Virus record (IMG/VR): IMGVR_UViG_3300028794_000188
Location: 1-22,938 of that record
Length of the DNA stretch: 22,938 nt
Origin: a virus
Direction: 5' to 3' (one strand)
The translations under genes were made by a program, and so were the position numbers. Position 1 is the first letter of the stretch. Each line of letters opens with the position of its first letter. Under the pieces are notes generated by a model. The model searched no databases, was not told the DNA's origin, and saw only the letters and a list, made by a program, of their open reading frames with translations. Shown in pieces: positions 9,119 to 18,474 of the stretch.

Positions 9119-9248
9119 ACACAACATCTATACATACTGACAGTCAGCTTTACTCAATATTCATCGTGTGTTGTTCAAAGCTTATGTTTACCTGCCTTTA
9201 AGTTTACCTTATTCTCATAATTTTAAAGTATCAATAATTTTTAATAAT

Positions 9249-9270
9249 AATTATGCCAAATGGCATAATT
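9249..9270. promoter_or_regulatory. 22-base palindrome upstream of the tape measure gene
   Basis: AATTATGCC-N4-GGCAT with the palindrome extended outward: two perfect 10-base arms around a 2-base centre, ending 13 bases before ATG 9284. A near copy of the core lies at 12726-12745. It could be an operator for a dimeric repressor or an RNA hairpin over the start region. A weak -7-like TAATTTTA (9218-9225) lies upstream. Confidence 0.5.
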
Positions 9271-9283
9271 AAAATAAAGGACC

Positions 9284-11983
9284 ATGTCGAATCAAAATAA
9301 CAGTACGAACGTCACAGACGATGACATCAAAAAATCAAAAGAATATACCGATGCAATGGATAAACTAAAAACAGCCATTAGCGGTGTAAACAGTAAATTA
9401 CCAGAATTTTCTGACGGCCTGCAAGCAGGCCTAAAAGCACTTGGCGAAAAATTGCCGGACGTTGTGGAAGCAATAACCAAGCTAAACGCTCAAAATAAAG
9501 AATTGGCTGCATCCGGCCAAAAACCTGTTAGCATATTGTCGCAATTAGCATCATCTATGTTTTCGTGGAATTCCCTGATATCCATCGGCATTACCTTACT
9601 TACCACTTATAGCGGTGCAATTATAAATTGGGTAAGTGATTTAATAAAAGGCGAAACACGGCTATCTGCCTTAGGTAAGGCAATGAAAGATAGTGCCATT
9701 GTGGCCAATGCACTTATTGAAACTCGATTGAGAGGCGCACAATCGGCCCAGGGAGAGCTTACAGCATTAAACTCTTTATACAGAGCCACACAGGAGCATG
9801 GTAAAGCTCTTGCATTCAAAAAGGGCGTTATCGATCAATTGAAAGATCAATGGCCCGCCGCTTTCAAAAACTTTAAAGATGAAGAAATAGCCGCCGGTAA
9901 AGCATCCGATGCCTATAAAAACTTGAAAGAGCAAATAATGGCAGCCGCTTACGCTGAAGCCTATAAAAACAAAATAGCCTCAAATACAAGTAGGGTTTTG
10001 GAAAATGATTTAAAAATAGCCAACGAAAGGGAGAAAAACCTAAAGATCTTGGTTGCTCAGAAAACGGCTCAAGATAATTTAGATTCATATAATCCCTCTA
10101 ATAAAAACTCAGGTTATGAAAATTTTTTAAAATCGCAGGCTTTAACAAGGAAAGAGGATATAGGAGCCCAAAATGCTGTCGACGATCAAACAAAATTGCG
10201 GGAAGCGAGTGATAAAATTCTTTATGATTTAAATACCGATAGCAAATTACTGACCGAGCAGAACAATAAAATGGGCGACTCTATTGAAGCTCTTTTTAAT
10301 AAATATGGATCAAGCGCGTTGACAGGAAAAGAAACCTTTAAAGAGCAAGAAAAACAACAATCCAAACTTAAAACTCAGACAGAAGACTATCTTTCTGAAG
10401 CCGAAAAACTCCGTAAGGATTCACTTGCGCGGCAGCTCCAAACTATTTTTGAGGGTTATGGTGCCGAAGCTCAGGCAGAAAACAAGAGATACGATCAGGA
10501 ACTGGGAGGGCTAAAAACTCTATTTTCTAAAAAGAAGATTAGCCAGGAAGAGTTTAATAAAGTAAGTAAACAACTTACAGCCGAGCACAACGGTAACTTA
10601 AGCAAACTTATAGACAAATATAACCGTGAAGATGCCGCTAAGGTAGAGCAGGCCCAAAATGAGTTGATTGACCTGCAAAACAAAGGAATGCAGGAGGGCG
10701 CCGAAAAACAAAAGAAAATCCTGGTACAGCAACAGGAAGAAAACTTGCAACAAATTAAAAAAAGCGACGATGAAATAATTGCACAGCAGCAAAACCTACA
10801 GATTCAGATGGCATTGGCAATAGGTACCGGCGACACCAAAGATGCAGGCCTTTTGGCCCAAAACATAAGTGCAAAGGAAAAGTTGTTGGCAACAAACGCG
10901 GCTAAACGTATTGAAATTGAAAACCAAACACAAAATGAATTAGACAAAATTGATAAAGAAACCACCCAAAAAGAAAAGCTGAAAAAAGACCAGGAAAATA
11001 TCGATGATGACCAATCAAAAGTTGATAACGCCAATAGCCCATCAGCAAAACTGGCCGCACAAAAGAAACTAATATGGGACCAGGCCCAATATGAAATTGA
11101 TGCGGCGAATGGTAACAGCGTAAAAATATTACAAATTGAAACAAAACGAAATAAGGCCATTGCCGATTTGGATAAACAAAGCCGAAAGCAACGCCAGGAC
11201 CAAGAGATCCAGATAGCCCAGCAAGTTGCCAGCGCCGCTTTCTCCCTCATCAGCAACAGCATCAAATCATCCAGCGAAGCCAAAATAAAAGGATTGGAAA
11301 GCGATAAGGCTAAAGAACTAAGCAACACCAACCTCACCAAAAGCCAGAAAGCAGCCATCGAGGCCAAATACAAAAAAAAGGAAAACGACGAAAAAGTAAA
11401 AGCTTTTAAAGCCGAGCAAAAAATGCAAATAGCCCAGGCGGTTATTAACGGCGCCATCGCCGTTACAAAAACATTGTCGACCATGGCCCTGCCAGCTGCC
11501 ATTCCGTTTATAGCAGCAGATGTAGCCATGACGGCCATGCAAATAGCCACCATAGCATCGCAAAAGCCGCCGAAATTTGCACGGGGCGGCCAGTTTATAT
11601 CTGATGGCCGGGGAGCCTTATTACCCGGCTACAGTCGTACCGATAATACCAATGCGTACCTGCGCTCGGGCGAGGCGGTTGTGGTATCCGAAGCCATGCG
11701 CAACCCCTGGGCCCGTAACCTGGTAAGCGCCATAAACGTGGCCCACGGCGGTCGCGATTTCTCGGCACCAAACCCGGGCAACGGTTACGCCATCGGCGGC
11801 ATATTTACCGACGGCGGCAATGCCAACCGGTACTATAACCAACCGGTAAATGATGTAAAAGAACTGGCCAATACCGTAGCCTACCAGATGATTAACAACT
11901 TCCCCCCTATCTACGTAGATGTGAAGGACGTTAACAACCAGCAAAATATACTGGCGCAAACGGTGGATAGGGTGAATCTTTAA
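9284..11983 (+). CDS. Tail tape measure protein
   Basis: This 899-residue protein is the ruler that sets tail length and probably helps DNA entry. It is the longest gene in the window and overwhelmingly helical: coiled-coil sequence rich in Lys, Gln, Glu and Ala runs from about residue 350 to 700. A hydrophobic segment (about 97-116, including LISIGITLLTTYSGA) lies near the N-terminus. A second hydrophobic region (about 715-765, with VINGAIAVTKTLS and AIPFIAADVAMTAMQIA) is followed by the Gly-rich 'FARGGQFISDGRG…LLPGYS' and 'SGEAVVVSEA' segment typical of tape measure C-termini. At about 1.5 angstrom per residue the tail would be near 130 nm long. In most phages the chaperone gene lies immediately upstream; here the two tail-tip genes and two morons intervene. 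A 22-base palindrome precedes its start. Confidence 0.9.
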   Translation: MSNQNNSTNVTDDDIKKSKEYTDAMDKLKTAISGVNSKLPEFSDGLQAGLKALGEKLPDVVEAITKLNAQNKELAASGQKPVSILSQLASSMFSWNSLISIGITLLTTYSGAIINWVSDLIKGETRLSALGKAMKDSAIVANALIETRLRGAQSAQGELTALNSLYRATQEHGKALAFKKGVIDQLKDQWPAAFKNFKDEEIAAGKASDAYKNLKEQIMAAAYAEAYKNKIASNTSRVLENDLKIANEREKNLKILVAQKTAQDNLDSYNPSNKNSGYENFLKSQALTRKEDIGAQNAVDDQTKLREASDKILYDLNTDSKLLTEQNNKMGDSIEALFNKYGSSALTGKETFKEQEKQQSKLKTQTEDYLSEAEKLRKDSLARQLQTIFEGYGAEAQAENKRYDQELGGLKTLFSKKKISQEEFNKVSKQLTAEHNGNLSKLIDKYNREDAAKVEQAQNELIDLQNKGMQEGAEKQKKILVQQQEENLQQIKKSDDEIIAQQQNLQIQMALAIGTGDTKDAGLLAQNISAKEKLLATNAAKRIEIENQTQNELDKIDKETTQKEKLKKDQENIDDDQSKVDNANSPSAKLAAQKKLIWDQAQYEIDAANGNSVKILQIETKRNKAIADLDKQSRKQRQDQEIQIAQQVASAAFSLISNSIKSSSEAKIKGLESDKAKELSNTNLTKSQKAAIEAKYKKKENDEKVKAFKAEQKMQIAQAVINGAIAVTKTLSTMALPAAIPFIAADVAMTAMQIATIASQKPPKFARGGQFISDGRGALLPGYSRTDNTNAYLRSGEAVVVSEAMRNPWARNLVSAINVAHGGRDFSAPNPGNGYAIGGIFTDGGNANRYYNQPVNDVKELANTVAYQMINNFPPIYVDVKDVNNQQNILAQTVDRVNL

Positions 11984-12140
11984 TTCAAAAGTCAAAATTA
12001 AAAAGTTAAAAACAGGAGTATGCTGAAGAATAGCTATGTCAAAAAGCATAACGAACATACCCTTTTGCCTTTTGCCTTTTGCCTTTTGCCTTTTGCCTTT
12101 TGCCTTTTGCCTTTTGACTTTTGACTTTTGACTTTAAAAA
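11984..12140. repeat. Inverted-repeat gap with heptamer tract before the 12141 gene
   Basis: The left part, directly after the tape measure stop, contains CAAAAGTCAAAA (11986-11997); this is complementary to TTTTGACTTTTG in the right part (about 12113-12130), which ends a few bases before ATG 12141. Between them lie about 60 bases without a gene and then the heptamer tract described separately. Confidence 0.65.
12062..12131 (+). repeat. Heptanucleotide tract: 7 x CTTTTGC then 3 x CTTTTGA
   Basis: Ten uninterrupted 7-base units end 9 bases before ATG 12141. Perfect short units of this kind change copy number by strand slippage, so this is a candidate variable tract in the leader of the small gene. 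Confidence 0.95.
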
Positions 12141-12371
12141 ATGAATATTAAAACAGCAAACACATTATTTGACAATGGCGTATTTTCGGCCATGTACAAG
12201 GCGGGGTTTATCACCACCAAAATTTTCACATACCGCGAAATTTACCTTTGGATCCACGCCCAGATGCAGATCCGCAATATCACCAAAAACCAGGCAGTAC
12301 TGGAAGCTGAGGTAAAATTTGGTAAGGATGAACGTACCATCTGGCGGGCGTTGAATTGCTTTACAGAATAA
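12141..12371 (+). CDS. Small helical protein of unknown function
   Basis: This 76-residue soluble protein starts at ATG 12141 after an A-rich run. It appears wholly helical. The C-terminal part (about 46-72: ITKNQAVLEAEVKFGKDERT followed by IWRALN) looks like a compact helix-turn-helix, as in small DNA-binding or packaging-associated proteins, but no family is recognised. It lies alone between the tape measure gene and the long repeat-filled gap before the head genes. The heptamer tract next to its start is the most unusual thing about it. It could be a regulator of the head operon or a small virion component; the sequence does not decide. Confidence 0.65.
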   Translation: MNIKTANTLFDNGVFSAMYKAGFITTKIFTYREIYLWIHAQMQIRNITKNQAVLEAEVKFGKDERTIWRALNCFTE

Positions 12372-12394
12372 TCAGTTGCGGGATGCGTGAAATA

Positions 12395-12527
12395 GTTGTC
12401 AGAATAAGAATTTACAGGATTAAAGAATTAGCAGAATTTTAAACCCTGCATCAAAATCCAAAAAATCTGATAAATCCGAAAAATCCCGGTTCAGAAAAAT
12501 TCACCTACTGACAAACTACTGTCACCA
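12395..12527. repeat. 133-base repeat, copy 1
   Basis: First of two direct copies 170 bases apart in a 494-base gene-free gap (12372-12865). No insertion or deletion separates the copies and only scattered bases differ. The left half (…CAGAATTT…) is loosely complementary to the right half (…AAAATCC…GGTTCAGA), so each copy can fold on itself. I see no open frame of note. Confidence 0.85.
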
Positions 12528-12564
12528 TCGCATTAAACTATTGTTCCGATATTTGTATCGTTCA

Positions 12565-12697
12565 GTTGTCTGAATCAGAATTTACAGGATTAAAGATTTA
12601 GCAGAATTTTAAACCCTGCATCAAAATCCAAAAAATCTGATAAATCCGAAAAATCCCGGTTCAGACGAAATCAACTACTGACAAACTACTGTCACCA
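12565..12697. repeat. 133-base repeat, copy 2
   Basis: Second direct copy. Here the hairpin ends are intact (GTCTGAA at 12568-12574 and TTCAGAC at 12660-12666), whereas in copy 1 they carry mismatches. Both copies end with the same CTACTGACAAACTACTGTCA tail. Confidence 0.85.
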
Positions 12698-12725
12698 CCA
12701 AAACAAAAACTAATCACGATCTTTG

Positions 12726-12745
12726 AATTATGCCAATCGGCATTA
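12726..12745. promoter_or_regulatory. Second AATTATGCC-N4-GGCAT palindrome, upstream of the head genes
   Basis: The core matches the palindrome at 9249-9270 (spacers AATC here, AAAT there). It directly follows GATCTTTG (12718-12725), one base from the -7 consensus TAnnTTTG, so a protein bound here would cover the transcription start. No clear -33 box is present. Confidence 0.4.
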
Positions 12746-12795
12746 AAAACATCAGCAATAATAATCGAATTCAGGCTAATCTGAGCCAAACAAAA

Positions 12796-12860
12796 CTTCC
12801 GGACTTTCCGACTTACCGGACTTCCGGACAAAAAATCTCATATCTAACATCTCAAATCTA
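12796..12860 (+). repeat. Word-like repeats just before the protease gene
   Basis: Short imperfect repetitions of TTCCGGACTT-type words (12796-12829) and of ATCTCATATCTAACATCTC-type words (12835-12858) fill the last 70 bases before ATG 12866. They resemble the other gap fillers in this window. Confidence 0.6.
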
Positions 12861-12865
12861 AAAAG

Positions 12866-14062
12866 ATGAGCTACAAAATCTACTTATACGATACCGAAAC
12901 CGATTGCATCGGGTCGGGCAGTTTATCATCGGCATACATACAAACGCAGCTGCAGGAAGCCGCCGGGCAGGACCTGGAAGTGCACATCAGTTCGGTAGGC
13001 GGCAGCGCGTTTGATGCCATTGCCATATATGATCTGCTTAAAAAATATCCGGGTAATGTAACTACCTACATTGATGCCCTGGCCGCCTCGGCTGCCTCTA
13101 TAGTGGCCATGGGTGGCAAAACCATCGTGATGAGCAAATATGCGCTGCTCATGATCCATAAACCCATGGTTGGCAGCGGCGGCAATGCCGATGAACTTTT
13201 AAAAGATGTGCAGATGTTGAATGTAGTACAATCGCGCCTGGCGCAAATCTACATGGACAAGTCCGGGTTGGACGGAGTAACAGTAAACAGTTTAATAAAC
13301 TCCGTCACCTGGATGACTGCCGACCAGGCTCTTGACATGGGCTTTATTGACCAGGTAGAGGATTACAGCCCGGATATTACCAACAGCGTCCTCATCAAAA
13401 AATACACCGGCACCGCTCCTGCGGTTTACCAGCGATGCATTAACAAAATCTTAAACAATAAAAATAACATGAACATCGAAAACAAAGAACTTATCGAAAA
13501 AACCACGTCGGTTTTGGATAAGATTATGAACTTTTTCAAAAAAGTGGTTAACAAGCAAACCATTACCGACAAAGGCACCCTGCACCACGCCGCTGAGTTA
13601 GGCGAAGGCGCCGAAGTGTACAACGACGAAGACATGAGCACCCCCGCTGCAACCGACACCTACACCACCGCCGATGGTAAAAAAATTGACGTTAAAGAAG
13701 GCCAGGTGCAAAAAGTAGCCCCCGCGCCGGAAGCCGACCCCGAGGCCGAAGATGAGGACGATGATGTACCAACAAGCAAATTAAACCCGGCAAAAAAAGC
13801 TACCGAAATTCAAAACCGCCTGCAGCAACTGAAAGCACGGCTACACGCCCAAAACGCGCTGTTAACCGAAGCCCGCACCGCCCTTGAAGAAGCAAGTAAC
13901 CGCCTGCAAAAAACCCGCACCGAAGTTAAAAACGAAATAAAATCAACCTACAGCCCCGAAGGCTCCAAACGCAGCAACAAAGCAAAACACGAAACCACAC
14001 CCTTCTTCGCCCCACAAAGCGACCTGGCTAAGAATGCGGTGAAAAGGGCAATTTCTAAATAG
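12866..14062 (+). CDS. ClpP-type prohead protease with fused scaffold-like C-terminus
   Basis: This 398-residue protein should cleave scaffold and capsid protein during head maturation. Residues 1-165 are an S14 (ClpP-like) peptidase: VHISSVGGSAFDAIAIYDLL (39-58), the nucleophile region DALAASAASIVAMGG with Ser75, then MIHKP with His98, and WMTADQALDMGFID (149-162). The position that usually carries the third, acidic residue (ETWMTA in relatives) is Val147 here. Residues 166-398 are unlike protease: a basic helix (204-230), an acidic stretch (289-300, EADPEAEDEDDD), then a strong coiled coil (about 312-360) and a basic end, as in internal scaffolds. The capsid gene follows, as expected. An internal ATG at 13469 could give the scaffold alone. 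Confidence 0.9.
   Translation: MSYKIYLYDTETDCIGSGSLSSAYIQTQLQEAAGQDLEVHISSVGGSAFDAIAIYDLLKKYPGNVTTYIDALAASAASIVAMGGKTIVMSKYALLMIHKPMVGSGGNADELLKDVQMLNVVQSRLAQIYMDKSGLDGVTVNSLINSVTWMTADQALDMGFIDQVEDYSPDITNSVLIKKYTGTAPAVYQRCINKILNNKNNMNIENKELIEKTTSVLDKIMNFFKKVVNKQTITDKGTLHHAAELGEGAEVYNDEDMSTPAATDTYTTADGKKIDVKEGQVQKVAPAPEADPEAEDEDDDVPTSKLNPAKKATEIQNRLQQLKARLHAQNALLTEARTALEEASNRLQKTRTEVKNEIKSTYSPEGSKRSNKAKHETTPFFAPQSDLAKNAVKRAISK
13469..14062 (+). CDS. Possible separate scaffold protein from an internal start
   Basis: ATG 13469 lies in frame at residue 202 of the protease gene, after AAACAATAAAAATAAC. This context closely matches the start context of the gene at 3442 (AAACAATAAAAAT). Translation would yield a 197-residue acidic/coiled-coil protein without the protease domain, comparable in arrangement to lambda C and its internal scaffold Nu3. 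Seen: the start context and the sharp change in composition at this point. Inferred: that it is used. Confidence 0.4.
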   Translation: MNIENKELIEKTTSVLDKIMNFFKKVVNKQTITDKGTLHHAAELGEGAEVYNDEDMSTPAATDTYTTADGKKIDVKEGQVQKVAPAPEADPEAEDEDDDVPTSKLNPAKKATEIQNRLQQLKARLHAQNALLTEARTALEEASNRLQKTRTEVKNEIKSTYSPEGSKRSNKAKHETTPFFAPQSDLAKNAVKRAISK

Positions 14063-14244
14063 TATCAAGTAGTAAGTATCAAGTAGCAAGACAGCTGCAA
14101 TATTTAAGTAGCAAGTCGTAAGCATATAGTAGTAAGCACACTGCAACGCTTTAAGTCCGAAAGTCCATCAAAAGTCTCATAGTCCAATAGTGCTAAAAGC
14201 AGATAGCCAAAAATCTTGATACTTGATACTTACTACTTGATACC
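14061..14244. repeat. Near-perfect 24-base inverted repeat between protease and capsid genes
   Basis: Arms at 14061-14084 and 14221-14244 pair at 23 of 24 bases across a 136-base loop. The left arm begins inside the TAG stop codon of the protease gene. The arms are built from AGTATCAAGTAGTAAGT-type words, and further copies (AAGTAGCAAG, AGTAGTAAG) lie in the loop. Confidence 0.9.
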
Positions 14245-14280
14245 CTTCCCAAATCAACAATAGAACTCCAAAACAAAAAC

Positions 14281-15489
14281 ATGGCTCAATTTACATTCAC
14301 CAACAACACCTATGCCGGCGAAGCGCTGGCCGGGTTCATGGCAAGCACGCTGCTGGAAGCCGATTCTGTAAAGCGTGGACTGCTCACCGTTATTAACGAC
14401 GTTAAAGCACGCAAGATTATACTTGATGTAGACGATGACGTAGTACTGCAAGATCCATCGGGTATATTCCATGACCAGGGCACAACCACCCTGCAAACCG
14501 AAAGCTACCTTGACCCCGTAGTTTACGAATTCATGAAACAGGAACAATGGGACAAGCTGGCACAAAGCTGGGAAGCCCAATCCCTGAAACCCGGCGCCTT
14601 TATGGATTACGAAGGCATTGTCGACCTATCCGACTTTATGGTTCAGCGTTATTTAACCAAAATACAGGTAGCCAACGAGCGACTGTACTGGCTGGGTAAA
14701 GGATCAACTAAAGAAGCAACCTTTAGCGCCCCATTCGCCGGCTTATTGCCAACTATAGCCGCAGCATCCGGTGTTTACAAAGTAGGTTTAGGCAAACCAA
14801 CAACATCTATGAGCGCTACAGCAATTAACGCATCGGGCGTTGTAAACGTAGCAGATACATCAACATTGGCCGACGGCGACGTAGTGACCATCACCAATGT
14901 TACCGGCACCAGTAAGGATACCACCAACGGTGGCGCGGGTATTGATTTACCGGGCCAATCGTACTTTATCCAGGTATTAACGTCAACCACGTTCAGGCTG
15001 GTACGCAACTATAACGAGGTTAACAGCCGCAAGCCTGCAACATTCCTGAACACCTCATCTGCGGCAACCATCAGCTACATCAATGTAAGCAACGTATTGC
15101 AGGTTTTAGGCAGCGTTTACGCCCAGCTTGACCCGGCCGACCGCATCCAGGAAGATTTTAACCTGCAAATCCCTTTACACGTAGGTTACGCTTACGCACA
15201 GGCACAGGCCAATAAAGCCCTGAACGTTATCAACGCCTTTACGGATATGAAGAAAATGGATTACCTGGGAATCCCATTACAAATCATGAACCACTGGCAG
15301 GCCAATACCATACTGGGTGCCCGTTCATCAAACCTGTTTTTAGGGGTCGATTTGCTGGGCGATGCTTCAGAACTATCAACCGTTTACATGAAGCCCTACA
15401 CCAACGATAACGTAGTACGCATGAAAGCCCGCATGAAAGCAGCCGTAAACTTCAAGTTTGCCAATGAGCTATTTTACTTAAGTGCGTAG
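14281..15489 (+). CDS. Major capsid protein (HK97-like fold) with inserted beta domain
   Basis: This 402-residue protein is the most likely shell protein. It lies directly after the protease/scaffold gene and has the right size. Residues 1-175 include the E-loop and spine-helix candidates (long helix about 76-100; 'SDFMVQRYLTKIQVANERLYWLG' spans about 117-139, quoted in part as QRYLTKIQVANERLY). Residues about 271-402 give the A-domain-like end with 'IPLHVGYAYAQAQANKAL' and 'AVNFKFANELFYL'. Between them, residues about 176-270 form a beta-rich insertion with 'DGDVVTITNVTGTS', 'GQSYFIQVL' and 'TSTTFRL', resembling FCCH/Ig-like decoration modules in phage proteins. The mature N-terminus cannot be predicted, because no clear long delta domain is visible. 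The gene is preceded by AAAACAAAAAC, a strong start context in this group, fitting high expression. Confidence 0.85.
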   Translation: MAQFTFTNNTYAGEALAGFMASTLLEADSVKRGLLTVINDVKARKIILDVDDDVVLQDPSGIFHDQGTTTLQTESYLDPVVYEFMKQEQWDKLAQSWEAQSLKPGAFMDYEGIVDLSDFMVQRYLTKIQVANERLYWLGKGSTKEATFSAPFAGLLPTIAAASGVYKVGLGKPTTSMSATAINASGVVNVADTSTLADGDVVTITNVTGTSKDTTNGGAGIDLPGQSYFIQVLTSTTFRLVRNYNEVNSRKPATFLNTSSAATISYINVSNVLQVLGSVYAQLDPADRIQEDFNLQIPLHVGYAYAQAQANKALNVINAFTDMKKMDYLGIPLQIMNHWQANTILGARSSNLFLGVDLLGDASELSTVYMKPYTNDNVVRMKARMKAAVNFKFANELFYLSA

Positions 15490-15497
15490 CACTTAAT

Positions 15498-15600
15498 AGT
15501 ATCAAGTCGCAAGTATCAAGATTTTTGGATGTTGGAATATTTAAACAAGTTAGAAATCCGATGCAACAGTCTTGATACTTGATACTAACTACTTGATACT
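15498..15600. repeat. Inverted repeat between capsid gene and 15642 gene
   Basis: The left arm (15498-15521) and right arm (15570-15600) pair as 12 + 10 bases, with a few extra bases in the right arm. The words (AAGTATCAAG, CTTGATACTT) are the same as in the previous gap. The left arm begins 8 bases after the capsid stop codon. TCAATAATTCAATAATTAA-type repeats fill the rest up to ATG 15642. Confidence 0.85.
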
Positions 15601-15641
15601 AAATCACTAATTCAGTCATTCAATAATTCAATAATTAATCA

Positions 15642-16229
15642 ATGTCAATTTACAATAAAATAAACGCGGGCTTTAAACTGGGTACAGATGAGCCTGTAAC
15701 ATCGGGGATAGAGGATGTTATATACATTTTTAACCAGGACGATATCACCCTTACTTATGATGTAGCCAATCCCTTAATCATTACCGGTTTAACAGCGGTA
15801 GGTACTGCAAAAATCTACAAGTTTGAGGGTACAAACAATAGCTTCAACACCATGAGCAAGCTCACCAAAACACAGGTGGGGCCACGTTATACCGAAGAGA
15901 TAGATTTTAATATTGCCGGTTTATCTGTTGATATTAAAGGCCAGCTGATGGCCATGGGCTACGGCCGGTTACGCGCCATAGCGGTTAACAACTACAAATC
16001 GAGCGACTCGGCAATTGAGCTTTTTGGCGCCGTGAACGGATTGATCCTGACAGATGCCGAACGCAACGCTGCCGACGAAACCCTGGACGGCGGCTACAAA
16101 CTAAAGCTAACCAATCCCGACAAGTTAAAAGAGCCCTACCCGCCCCGCGCCATATCTATCGCACCCGAATCAGGTTCGGCCACTTACACCAGTACTATTG
16201 CCGCTATCGAGGCGCTGTTGGCTATTTAA
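15642..16229 (+). CDS. Small beta-rich structural protein, possible tail tube protein
   Basis: This 195-residue soluble protein has mainly beta-type sequence: DDITLTYDVANPLIITGLTA (about 33-52), VDIKGQLMAMGYGRLRAIAV (96-115), and a segment 'AIELFGAVNGLILTDAERN' (124-142) followed by 'LDGGYKLKLTNPD' and 'EPYPPRAISI'. The combination of a 'G..NGL' turn with a 'GY.L.L' strand resembles small Bacteroidetes phage proteins that I take for tube or capsid-associated proteins, but I am not certain. Its size would fit a tube subunit, and no other gene in the window is a better candidate. Its place between capsid and portal genes would be unusual for a tube. It could equally be a head decoration protein. 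Confidence 0.55.
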   Translation: MSIYNKINAGFKLGTDEPVTSGIEDVIYIFNQDDITLTYDVANPLIITGLTAVGTAKIYKFEGTNNSFNTMSKLTKTQVGPRYTEEIDFNIAGLSVDIKGQLMAMGYGRLRAIAVNNYKSSDSAIELFGAVNGLILTDAERNAADETLDGGYKLKLTNPDKLKEPYPPRAISIAPESGSATYTSTIAAIEALLAI

Positions 16230-16353
16230 TTATTGAATTATTGATTGACTGATTTATTGAATATTGGATTATCGCTGACAGTTAAATTAATACTCCATTT
16301 CAAAACCTGCCTTATCAATCAGTAATTCTGTCAATCAATAATTCAGTAATTAA
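16226..16353. repeat. Inverted repeat between 15642 gene and portal gene
   Basis: Arms at 16226-16249 and 16330-16353 pair at 23 of 24 bases. The left arm covers the TAA stop codon (16227-16229). The words are TTAATTATTGAATTATTG and the complementary form. Confidence 0.9.
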
Positions 16354-16363
16354 TCCCCCCTTA

Positions 16364-16402
16364 TCAATCAATAATTCAATAACTCAATAATTCAATAATT
16401 AA
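16364..16402 (+). repeat. Extra right-arm words before the portal start
   Basis: A further right-arm-like sequence (TCAATCAATAATTCAATAAC, then CTCAATAATTCAATAATTAA) ends 3 bases before ATG 16406. It could pair with the same left arm at 16226-16249, giving two competing stems. Confidence 0.8.
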
Positions 16403-16405
16403 CAC

Positions 16406-17689
16406 ATGAAAACCTACTTACCGCAAATTGAGCGAAGAATATTGGTAAGGCCCAACCAAACCTACGGGATATTAAACTACGACCTGGATAACGCTTACCC
16501 GCAACGGATGCTGGAACTGGTTGCCGGATCGCCAACGGCTAAGGATTGCTGGAACAAACGGGCCAAGTTTATTGGAGGCAACGGGTTTGAAGCAACTGCT
16601 TTAGGCAAACAGATCATCAACGCCAAAGGCTTAACCCTGGCTAAGCTTTTGAAAGCGCTGGCAACAGATAAAGCCCTTTTTACCGGCTTCGGCATCCACG
16701 TAAATTACAATGCCAATTTCAAAATAGCTTCGGTTAATTACATTAAGTTCGAGGATATCCGCATGGGCGATACCGATTGCCCCGAAACTGCCAATAAGTT
16801 TGCCATTTATAACGATTGGGGCCGCAAGACATGGAAGAATATCATGCGCAGCAAGGTTATATTTTTAGATAAATATAACCCCGACCCGGCGGTTGTGCAG
16901 CAACAGGTTGACGATGCCGGCGGGTGGGACAAATACAAAGGGCAGCTGCTTTACTTTAACCCCGAAATTGATGATTACCCCCTGATAGAAGCAGACTCAG
17001 TTTGGGAGGATTTTGAAACCGAAGCCGGCATCAAAATTTTTAACAACCGCGAGGTCACCACAGGCTTTTTGCCATCAACCATGCTGTTCATGAAATCGCG
17101 CCGCGAAGAGGCCGATAACAGCAGGCCCGATGCCGATGAATTTGCAGGAATAAATACCCCCTCGCAGTTGGAACAGGATCTTGGAGCTTTCCAGGGAACC
17201 AAAAGCGCGCAAAAAATTATTGTTATCGAATACGAGGATGAAAATTCAAAACCAGAATTTAAGGCCTACCCTATCCAGAATAACGATAAGCTGTTTGAAA
17301 CAACCGAACGATCCGTTGAAGCCCGCATCATCAAAGGTTTTTCTGTCCCCAAAGAACTGGTTAATCCCGAAAAATCATCCGGCTTAAGCAACGGCGGCGA
17401 AAAGAAACAGGCTATCATCGAATTTAACGACAATACCGCGCCCGACAGGCAGGAGCTGACCGAAACGCTTGCAGAAGTATTCAGTCACTTTTATACCAAT
17501 ATTAATCCGGCCGGTAATTGGGCTATTACACCTGTGCCAGCTATAGCTGCCGATGATAGTCCGGGGATTAAAGCGGGTAATGCAATCAATAACCTGCTTT
17601 CATCAGCCATCCCATTGCAAAATAAAATAGCCGCCCTGGTTTATGCATACGGCTTTAAACAGGCCGAAGCAGAGGCGATGTGTAAATAG
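16406..17689 (+). CDS. Portal protein
   Basis: This 427-residue protein should form the ring at the head vertex through which DNA is packaged and to which the connector binds. Recognisable portal wording includes 'CWNKRAKFIGGNGF' (about 47-60), 'LFTGFGIHVNYN' (about 91-102), the 'VEARIIKGFSVPKELVNPE' stretch (about 304-322), where portals have a helix then 'fgVP.ellg', and the following 'SSGLSNGGEKKQAIIEF' wing. The length is typical for the smaller Bacteroidetes portals. It comes after the capsid gene, whereas portals usually precede protease and capsid. The connector gene follows, separated by 170 bases of hairpin sequence. No alternative family fits as well. Confidence 0.85.
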   Translation: MKTYLPQIERRILVRPNQTYGILNYDLDNAYPQRMLELVAGSPTAKDCWNKRAKFIGGNGFEATALGKQIINAKGLTLAKLLKALATDKALFTGFGIHVNYNANFKIASVNYIKFEDIRMGDTDCPETANKFAIYNDWGRKTWKNIMRSKVIFLDKYNPDPAVVQQQVDDAGGWDKYKGQLLYFNPEIDDYPLIEADSVWEDFETEAGIKIFNNREVTTGFLPSTMLFMKSRREEADNSRPDADEFAGINTPSQLEQDLGAFQGTKSAQKIIVIEYEDENSKPEFKAYPIQNNDKLFETTERSVEARIIKGFSVPKELVNPEKSSGLSNGGEKKQAIIEFNDNTAPDRQELTETLAEVFSHFYTNINPAGNWAITPVPAIAADDSPGIKAGNAINNLLSSAIPLQNKIAALVYAYGFKQAEAEAMCK

Positions 17690-17694
17690 CAGCA

Positions 17695-17855
17695 AGCCCC
17701 TCCTAAATCCTCCCCGGAAGGGAGGACTTCAAAACAATTATTAATCCATCGGCCAAAAGTCTCCCCTACCGGGGAGATTTAGAGAGAGCTTACAATTAAC
17801 TTATCCATTAACACAATCAAAAAGTCTCCCCTACCGGGGGAGATTTAGAGGGGGC
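17695..17855. repeat. Inverted repeat with two right arms between portal and connector genes
   Basis: The left arm (about 17695-17731, AGCCCCTCCTAAATCC…) is complementary to two right arms at about 17755-17790 and 17820-17855 (each AGTCTCCCCTACCGGGG…, then …GATTTAGAG). Each right arm also holds its own small stem (CTCCCC…GGGGAG). The second right arm ends 4 bases before ATG 17860. The G-runs (GAGGGGGCT) are the only G-rich pre-start sequence in the window. Confidence 0.85.
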
Positions 17856-17859
17856 TACT

Positions 17860-18474
17860 ATGATCTATCTCATCAACCAAACCACGTTTCAGCAATACGA
17901 GGATATTACTGTAAACATAAAACCCGAACGCCTGAAGATATTCATCAAAAAAGCGCAGGAACTGGATTTAAAACCCTTTTTGGGGCATGCCTTATACTAT
18001 GATTTTTTAAACCACTTTAATGAAGATGGCACCTTACAGGACGATGCCCCGCAACCCTACAAAGACCTGCTGAATGGCACCGAGTACCTTGACGATTACG
18101 GCCATATTGTATTGTACGAAGGCCTGGCCCCAACCATGGTTTACTTCACCTTCGCCCGCTTTATTGAAAACGACGCGGTGCACTATACAGCCACCGGCCC
18201 GGTAATTAAAAGGCATGAAAACGGCGATGCCCTTTCATCTCCCGAAGTGGTAAAGCTGGTACAGCAGCAACGCAGCATTGCCAACGCCTACGCCAACGAT
18301 ATTGAAAAGTTTTTGTGGGATAACAAGGCCGATTTTCCGCTATGGCGATATAACGCCAAAAACAAAAGCAGCAGGCAGGCTGGCCCACGGATAAGGGGTG
18401 TAGATAAAAATGACTTTAATTATCCTGGCAGCTACAACAATTACAATTTAACCATTACCGAATTTTTAAACTGA
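17860..18474 (+). CDS. Head-tail connector protein
   Basis: This 204-residue soluble protein is mostly helical. It opens with 'MIYLINQTTFQQYEDITVNI' (1-20), then 'PERLKIFIKKAQELDLKPFLG' (about 22-42), wording that I recognise from Bacteroidetes phage connector-type proteins found next to portals (I believe the DUF6712 group, without a search to confirm). A helical middle (about 82-110) and a Ser/Lys/Arg-rich C-terminal arm follow. It should seat under the portal and join the tail. The stop codon overlaps the next start (TGATG at 18472-18476), so the fibre gene is probably translated by coupling. Confidence 0.75.
   Translation: MIYLINQTTFQQYEDITVNIKPERLKIFIKKAQELDLKPFLGHALYYDFLNHFNEDGTLQDDAPQPYKDLLNGTEYLDDYGHIVLYEGLAPTMVYFTFARFIENDAVHYTATGPVIKRHENGDALSSPEVVKLVQQQRSIANAYANDIEKFLWDNKADFPLWRYNAKNKSSRQAGPRIRGVDKNDFNYPGSYNNYNLTITEFLN

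Follow-up and report, generated by a model that had tools for sequence, protein, structure and literature searches.

Hairpins of unrelated words in a recurrent position after stop codons, in a prophage head operon and in Mucilaginibacter chromosomes

Why should successive gene gaps of one operon each carry a long inverted repeat, laid out in the same way but spelled in different words? The question is raised by IMGVR_UViG_3300028794_000188, a virus contig of 22.9 kb with a gene set of prophage type, analysed here as one stretch of 22,938 nt (the window). In the genome collection, prophage relatives whose portal is 70-98% identical come almost exclusively from Mucilaginibacter; a 97% relative is present in Mucilaginibacter strain OK283. 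The genes that matter here are the following.

489-1781, large terminase gene
9284-11983, tail-tape-measure-like gene (tmp)
12866-14062, + strand, ClpP-like head maturation protease gene (prot; PF00574, phrog_94)
14281-15489, + strand, presumed major capsid gene (mcp), named by inference from position and conservation
15642-16229, + strand, g13, head-operon gene with no assigned function (phrog_21217)
16406-17689, + strand, portal protein gene (phrog_11226, E 3e-77)
17860-18474, + strand, DUF6712 gene (PF20459)

Of 101 Mucilaginibacter genomes sampled, 54 have the capsid gene family, nearly always in single copy, and the same chromosomal gene block adjoins the prophage element on its upstream side in 7-8 of the 10 genomes examined. 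This is possibly a vertically inherited and perhaps domesticated prophage or gene-transfer-agent-like operon, or an element with a single fixed attachment site.

The sequence-only reading of the window had reported long inverted repeats in five gaps, and all five were confirmed.

11979-12011 with 12105-12137, + strand, hairpin of the tmp/g10 gap (inverted-repeat search; folding z -2.7)
14062-14091 with 14214-14243, + strand, hairpin of the prot/mcp gap, TATCAAG/CTTGATA words (z -7.2)
15497-15520 with 15578-15601, + strand, hairpin of the mcp/g13 gap, TATCAAG words (z -4.6)
16226-16260 with 16319-16353 or 16368-16402, + strand, hairpin of the g13/portal gap, ATTGAATTATTGA words (z -5.8)
17695-17730 with 17824-17857, + strand, hairpin of the portal/DUF6712 gap, AGCCCCTCCTAAATC...GATTTAGAGGGGGCT (folding z -6.0)

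Arm-pairing scores of the five gaps are 18-27 versus 9-13 in dinucleotide shuffles. RNA folding of each gap from the upstream stop to the downstream start, the check proposed in that reading, gave structures more stable than shuffles in every case, at the z values listed. In all five minimum-energy folds the left arm starts at the stop codon or within about 10 nt of it, and both the start codon and a few bases or more in front of it are single-stranded. The tmp/g10 left arm starts within the last codons or stop of the upstream gene, the first base of the prot/mcp left arm is the last base of the TAG stop, and the g13/portal left arm begins at the TAA stop and has two alternative right arms. 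The full extent of the prot/mcp repeat in the inverted-repeat search is 14051-14091/14214-14254, and a 37-nt unpaired leader precedes the ATG at 14281. The mcp/g13 gap carries TCAATAATTC words at 15604-15638, 3' of its right arm, and the portal/DUF6712 gap an inner self-hairpin at 17758-17791. The tmp/g10 right arm lies inside a (CCTTTTG)n/(CTTTTGA)n heptamer array at 12061-12135 (10.7 copies, period 7). This array is a variable-number repeat, mostly CCTTTTG in the window and CTTTTGA in the relative L150, and its unit and copy number vary among close relatives (also at G001:C12:44667-44758).

The remaining gaps of the window fold with z near 0, except 2737-2963 (-4.9) and 9119-9283 (-2.1); the first of these holds, at 2783-2890, a different, REP-like hairpin, AGTCATGCCGAACTTGTTTCGGCATCCCACA / TGTGGGATCATGAAACAAGTTCAGGATGACT. 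Before the head protease gene, at 12372-12865, there are tandem units of about 170 nt. Each has conserved TACTGACAAA and TGTCACCA half-sites, with CCGATATTTGTAT close to a hairpin that varies. Similar units are present in relatives, and the array looks like an operator or promoter array. Short palindromes, ATTATGCCAAATGGCATAAT (9241-9278) and ATGCCAATCGGCAT (12730-12745), lie upstream of the tape-measure and protease genes and are a possible operator pair.

Orthologous gaps were mapped in 60 genome and about 130 viral loci (71-196 loci per gap position), similar gaps were removed at an 8-mer Jaccard above 0.35, and a hairpin was called at z>3. Hairpins were found in 92 of 111 distinct gaps at mcp/g13 (83%), in 48 of 90 at prot/mcp, 48 of 93 at portal/DUF6712, 30 of 115 at g13/portal and 14 of 58 at tmp/g10, and at g10/prot in 1 of 25 (4%), so that their frequency is heterogeneous among the prophage gaps (chi2 p=8e-23). 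They are also commoner in prophage gaps (239/518) than in chromosomal tandem gaps (77/482; p=2e-25). The words seen in relatives include TATCAAG, ATTGAATTA, GGTTGATT, CATGGACTATGG, GTTCATGG, GTCATTAG, GCAGTTTGC, GCAGTAGC and CCCCCTAAAGGGGG, among others, the families being assigned by regular expressions that many gaps do not match at all. A search with an exact 18-mer of the GGTTGATT family, too strict a query, gave no match. Several unrelated words occur at one and the same gap position. Even among relatives with 97% portal identity, prot/mcp has TATCAAG in the window, CATGGACTATGG in L150 and L010 and GCAGTTTGC in L011, and the end of the leader, ACTCCAAAACAAAAAC, is identical in the window and L011 despite the different hairpin words. 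Across orthologous gaps generally the words are unrelated, while protein C-termini are conserved (that of the capsid up to its stop, FANELFYLSA*) and the leaders partly so. The claim of one layout with differing words is thus borne out: the layout is far above chance and recurs, with other words, at the orthologous gaps of relatives. As judged from these comparisons, the shared layout is likely due to selection or to a common mechanism.

The position 16230-16405 is occupied differently in many relatives (for example L194, L198, L199 and L201), where a small gene (MTKKYILKPGKHQFAPGS...) that is absent from the window lies between g13 and portal, often with hairpins upstream of it.

At prot/mcp the stop codon is TAG in 27 of 31 members of the TATCAAG, GGTTGATT, CATGGAC and GCAGTTTGC families, and TAA in 9 of 10 members of the CCCCC family, in which the last codon also comes from the element (AIAP* in L014). 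Since stop codon type tracks the hairpin family, the element often brings the stop codon. At mcp/g13 the two arms match better within a locus (18.2) than between loci (11.5). Paired positions there show 239 double changes versus 90 expected (2.7-fold, uncorrected for phylogeny), of which 151 are Watson-Crick; single-sided changes (1592) outnumber them, so that individual base pairs are not strictly maintained. In 127 of 164 prophage hairpins the left arm contains more G than C, and periods of 7 and 8 are enriched in the arms. The idea that the 7-nt words serve to place stops in all three frames was rejected as a general explanation: prophage left arms are richer in such stops (0.111 vs 0.077 per nt), chromosomal ones are not (0.065 vs 0.069).

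The layout had been described as running from stop to start. Measured against a null in which each half-gap was rotated, and with prophage stops taken from homology-extended reading frames, the left arm lies within 5 nt of the stop in 148 of 199 prophage hairpins (74% vs 33% in the null, p=4e-30) and within 15 nt in 191 of 199. The distance from right arm to start has a median of 14 nt versus 16 nt in the null (p=0.59). The stop-side half of the description stands, and the start-side half does not, because the right arm is placed relative to the start as in the null. Chromosomal tandem gaps, with genes from a home-made caller, gave the same picture: the left arm begins 15 nt or less from the stop in 42 of 59 hairpins and 5 nt or less from it in 46% (27% in the null), with no preference on the start side (p=0.29). 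Stop anchoring was not significant in chromosomal convergent gaps (p=0.33). The sequence-only reading had held that the phage layout would be incidental if host gaps had the same words at no preferred distance from stop and start. Host gaps do share the words and show no start-side preference, but the stop is preferred (p=1e-4).

These measurements bear on translational coupling, in which a stem joining stop and start, or hiding the start, would make translation of the next gene depend on termination of the previous one. A stem that starts at the stop and leaves unpaired, between stop and start, a stretch of about a ribosome footprint would suit such a device. However, the right arm shows no preferred distance to the start, and start regions at mcp/g13 are equally unpaired with and without a hairpin (0.69 vs 0.70), a result that gives no support to occlusion of the start codon either. 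Similar hairpins moreover occur in convergent chromosomal gaps, which contain no start codon. The earlier proposal that a stop-start stem gates the next gene is not supported, with leader and start outside the stem, accessibility unchanged and the start side unanchored, and we consider coupling very unlikely.

A terminator lies after the capsid gene of T7. If the hairpins similarly adjusted head-protein ratios, as terminators or attenuators, this would agree with a hairpin frequency that is highest after the presumed capsid gene, and with the presence of hairpins in convergent gaps as well. However, the flank 3' of the right arm is A-rich and not T-rich (T 0.18-0.32, A 0.34-0.51), and the loops are long, with a median of about 40 nt in tandem gaps. 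An intrinsic terminator with a U tract was not supported, there being no T tract and the stems being mostly AT-rich instead of short and G+C-rich. We give this explanation little credence.

Four Mucilaginibacter genomes, about 1.56 Mb, were surveyed for chromosomal gaps of 50-400 nt with a hairpin at z>5. Hairpins were present in 49 of 482 tandem gaps (about 1/10), 28 of 133 convergent gaps (about 1/5) and 1 of 141 divergent gaps. Some of the convergent ones are ordinary terminators or REPs, and many of the tandem ones belong to prophage word families. Presence in tandem and convergent gaps and near-absence from divergent ones fits a role for the elements, or their tolerance, in transcribed 3' regions, with no downstream start needed. 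Words were also counted in 42 whole genomes, where reversed-pattern controls gave 0-1 per strand. Eight genomes contain 29-106 copies of ACTWRCTACTTGATAC, and about half lack it; CAACTTAATCMAMC is abundant in another set that partly overlaps the ACTWRCTACTTGATAC-rich one. Dispersed copies number tens per genome in some species and none in others. For each of two words, the prophages that use it are found mainly in genomes with many copies (MWU p=2e-5 and 4e-4); copies within the prophage itself are part of these counts, and species that are close relatives are non-independent. Three TATCAAG-rich genomes have no TATCAAG in the prophage. Where copies of a word in the two orientations are near each other in the genomes, read by eye, the reverse one precedes, with the G-richer arm 5'.

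How do the hairpins reach their places? A homologous element of about 125 nt lies in prot/mcp of some loci and in mcp/g13 of others, and its right arm recurs in many host gaps. Some relatives have short, hairpin-free gaps (28 nt in L192, L202 and L200; 2-8 nt in portal/DUF6712). Marks of MITE-type mobile elements are target-site duplications, empty sites and inverted repeats at the termini. Unit changes are concerted in both arms, TTATTGAA to TTAGTGAA going with TTCAATAA to TTCACTAA. Taken together, these observations suggest that the hairpins are copied and homogenised. The exchange pattern may be compatible with transposition, gene conversion and template switching alike, and the excess of double changes at mcp/g13 would also be expected under template switching. 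Mobilisation by RAYT was rejected: PF01797 genes are present in all five genomes, and their 160-nt flanks, read by eye, carry other repeats (6 of 30 loci had no gene call). A broader proposal, that a mechanism recognising the place after the stop swaps whole cassettes, so that structure and position would be inherited and sequence would not, with species vocabularies spreading between host and prophage and selected as sequence-independent 3' RNA structures, is tentative and on balance doubtful.

The shared element of about 125 nt and the short hairpin-free gaps are also what neutral or selfish repeats, non-autonomous and either mobile or copied, would leave if they accumulated where they are harmless, just after stops, in a layout without function. 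Such accumulation, sparing promoters under purifying selection, would equally give the absence from divergent gaps. Two observations speak against it, both hard to obtain without selection: the strong heterogeneity among the gaps of a single operon (83% at mcp/g13, behind the presumed capsid gene, versus 4% at g10/prot), and the fact that a hairpin gives way to an unrelated hairpin and is not simply lost. We regard neutral accumulation as unlikely.

REP and BIME elements are dispersed palindromic intergenic repeats, with GTAG and CGTC super-families (PMC3733652; RepRanger survey, PMC12306157). The survey cites earlier work (its ref. 17) in which E. coli REPs no more than 15 nt from a stop reportedly cause ribosome stalling and reduced translation (PMC12306157). 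The Mucilaginibacter hairpins are likewise intergenic, dispersed and at gene ends near stops, and the 15-nt distance matches the one given there for E. coli. They differ in their arms of 25-35 nt, loops of about 40 nt, AT-richness and 7-8-nt tandem words, and in the many unrelated families per genome. The terminal, unpaired GTAG/CGTC tag of REPs, which are palindromes of 20-40 bp, was not seen by eye in the words of the five gaps and the 199 relatives, nor were hairpins seen by eye beside the tyrosine transposases examined in five genomes, as in GTAG-class RAYT linkage. Some chromosomal gaps do carry CGTC-like repeats (CGTCATTGCGAGG) and a repeat resembling those beside tyrosine transposases. 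The hairpin class thus resembles REPs in distribution, without their tag, size and transposase features. Heptamer direct repeats of TAACTGA are known from Beggiatoaceae, cyanobacteria and Bacteroidetes, near starts and once after a stop (MacGregor 2015, PMC4679880). They too are intergenic 7-nt tandem words, with other heptamers in the vicinity and, in relatives, shorter gaps free of repeats, but they are one word, nearly all direct with one inverted repeat (PMC4679880), whereas Mucilaginibacter has many words in stop-anchored inverted pairs. A search of the literature on Mucilaginibacter and Pedobacter intergenic repeats, which covered few subscription journals, gave no description of these hairpins. 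The STRR repeats of heterocystous cyanobacteria are likewise short tandem 7-nt intergenic words, but direct repeats, and we know of no stop-anchored hairpin layout among them.

Based on these findings, the most likely explanation, to which we give a probability of roughly 0.58, is that the hairpins of the five gaps belong to a class found throughout Mucilaginibacter at gene ends, swapped as cassettes and acting as post-stop RNA stems. The elements consist of 7-8-nt words, imperfectly repeated in one arm with the reverse complement in the other. They are set directly 3' of the upstream stop, which is often the first codon of the element, and a short, A-rich leader separates them from the next gene. 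Dispersed in the host genome, they have a vocabulary that differs from species to species, and the prophage words come largely from this host stock. Sequence comparison shows that whole cassettes are exchanged between the stop codon and the leader. The hairpins are probably kept as post-stop RNA structures, and the stems would shield the 3' ends of cistrons from exonucleases or insulate them from the neighbour; because of this 3'-end role their retention would be strongest behind the presumed capsid gene. In a variant of the post-stop model, by analogy with E. coli REPs, they may tune down the upstream gene locally.

The surprising part is that hairpin words are swapped in a conserved slot. 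The dozens of natural replacements at orthologous gaps separate sequence from structure. With them one can test directly whether folding is what selection acts on in the post-stop hairpins of operons, and by what route such repeats come to be copied to gene ends.
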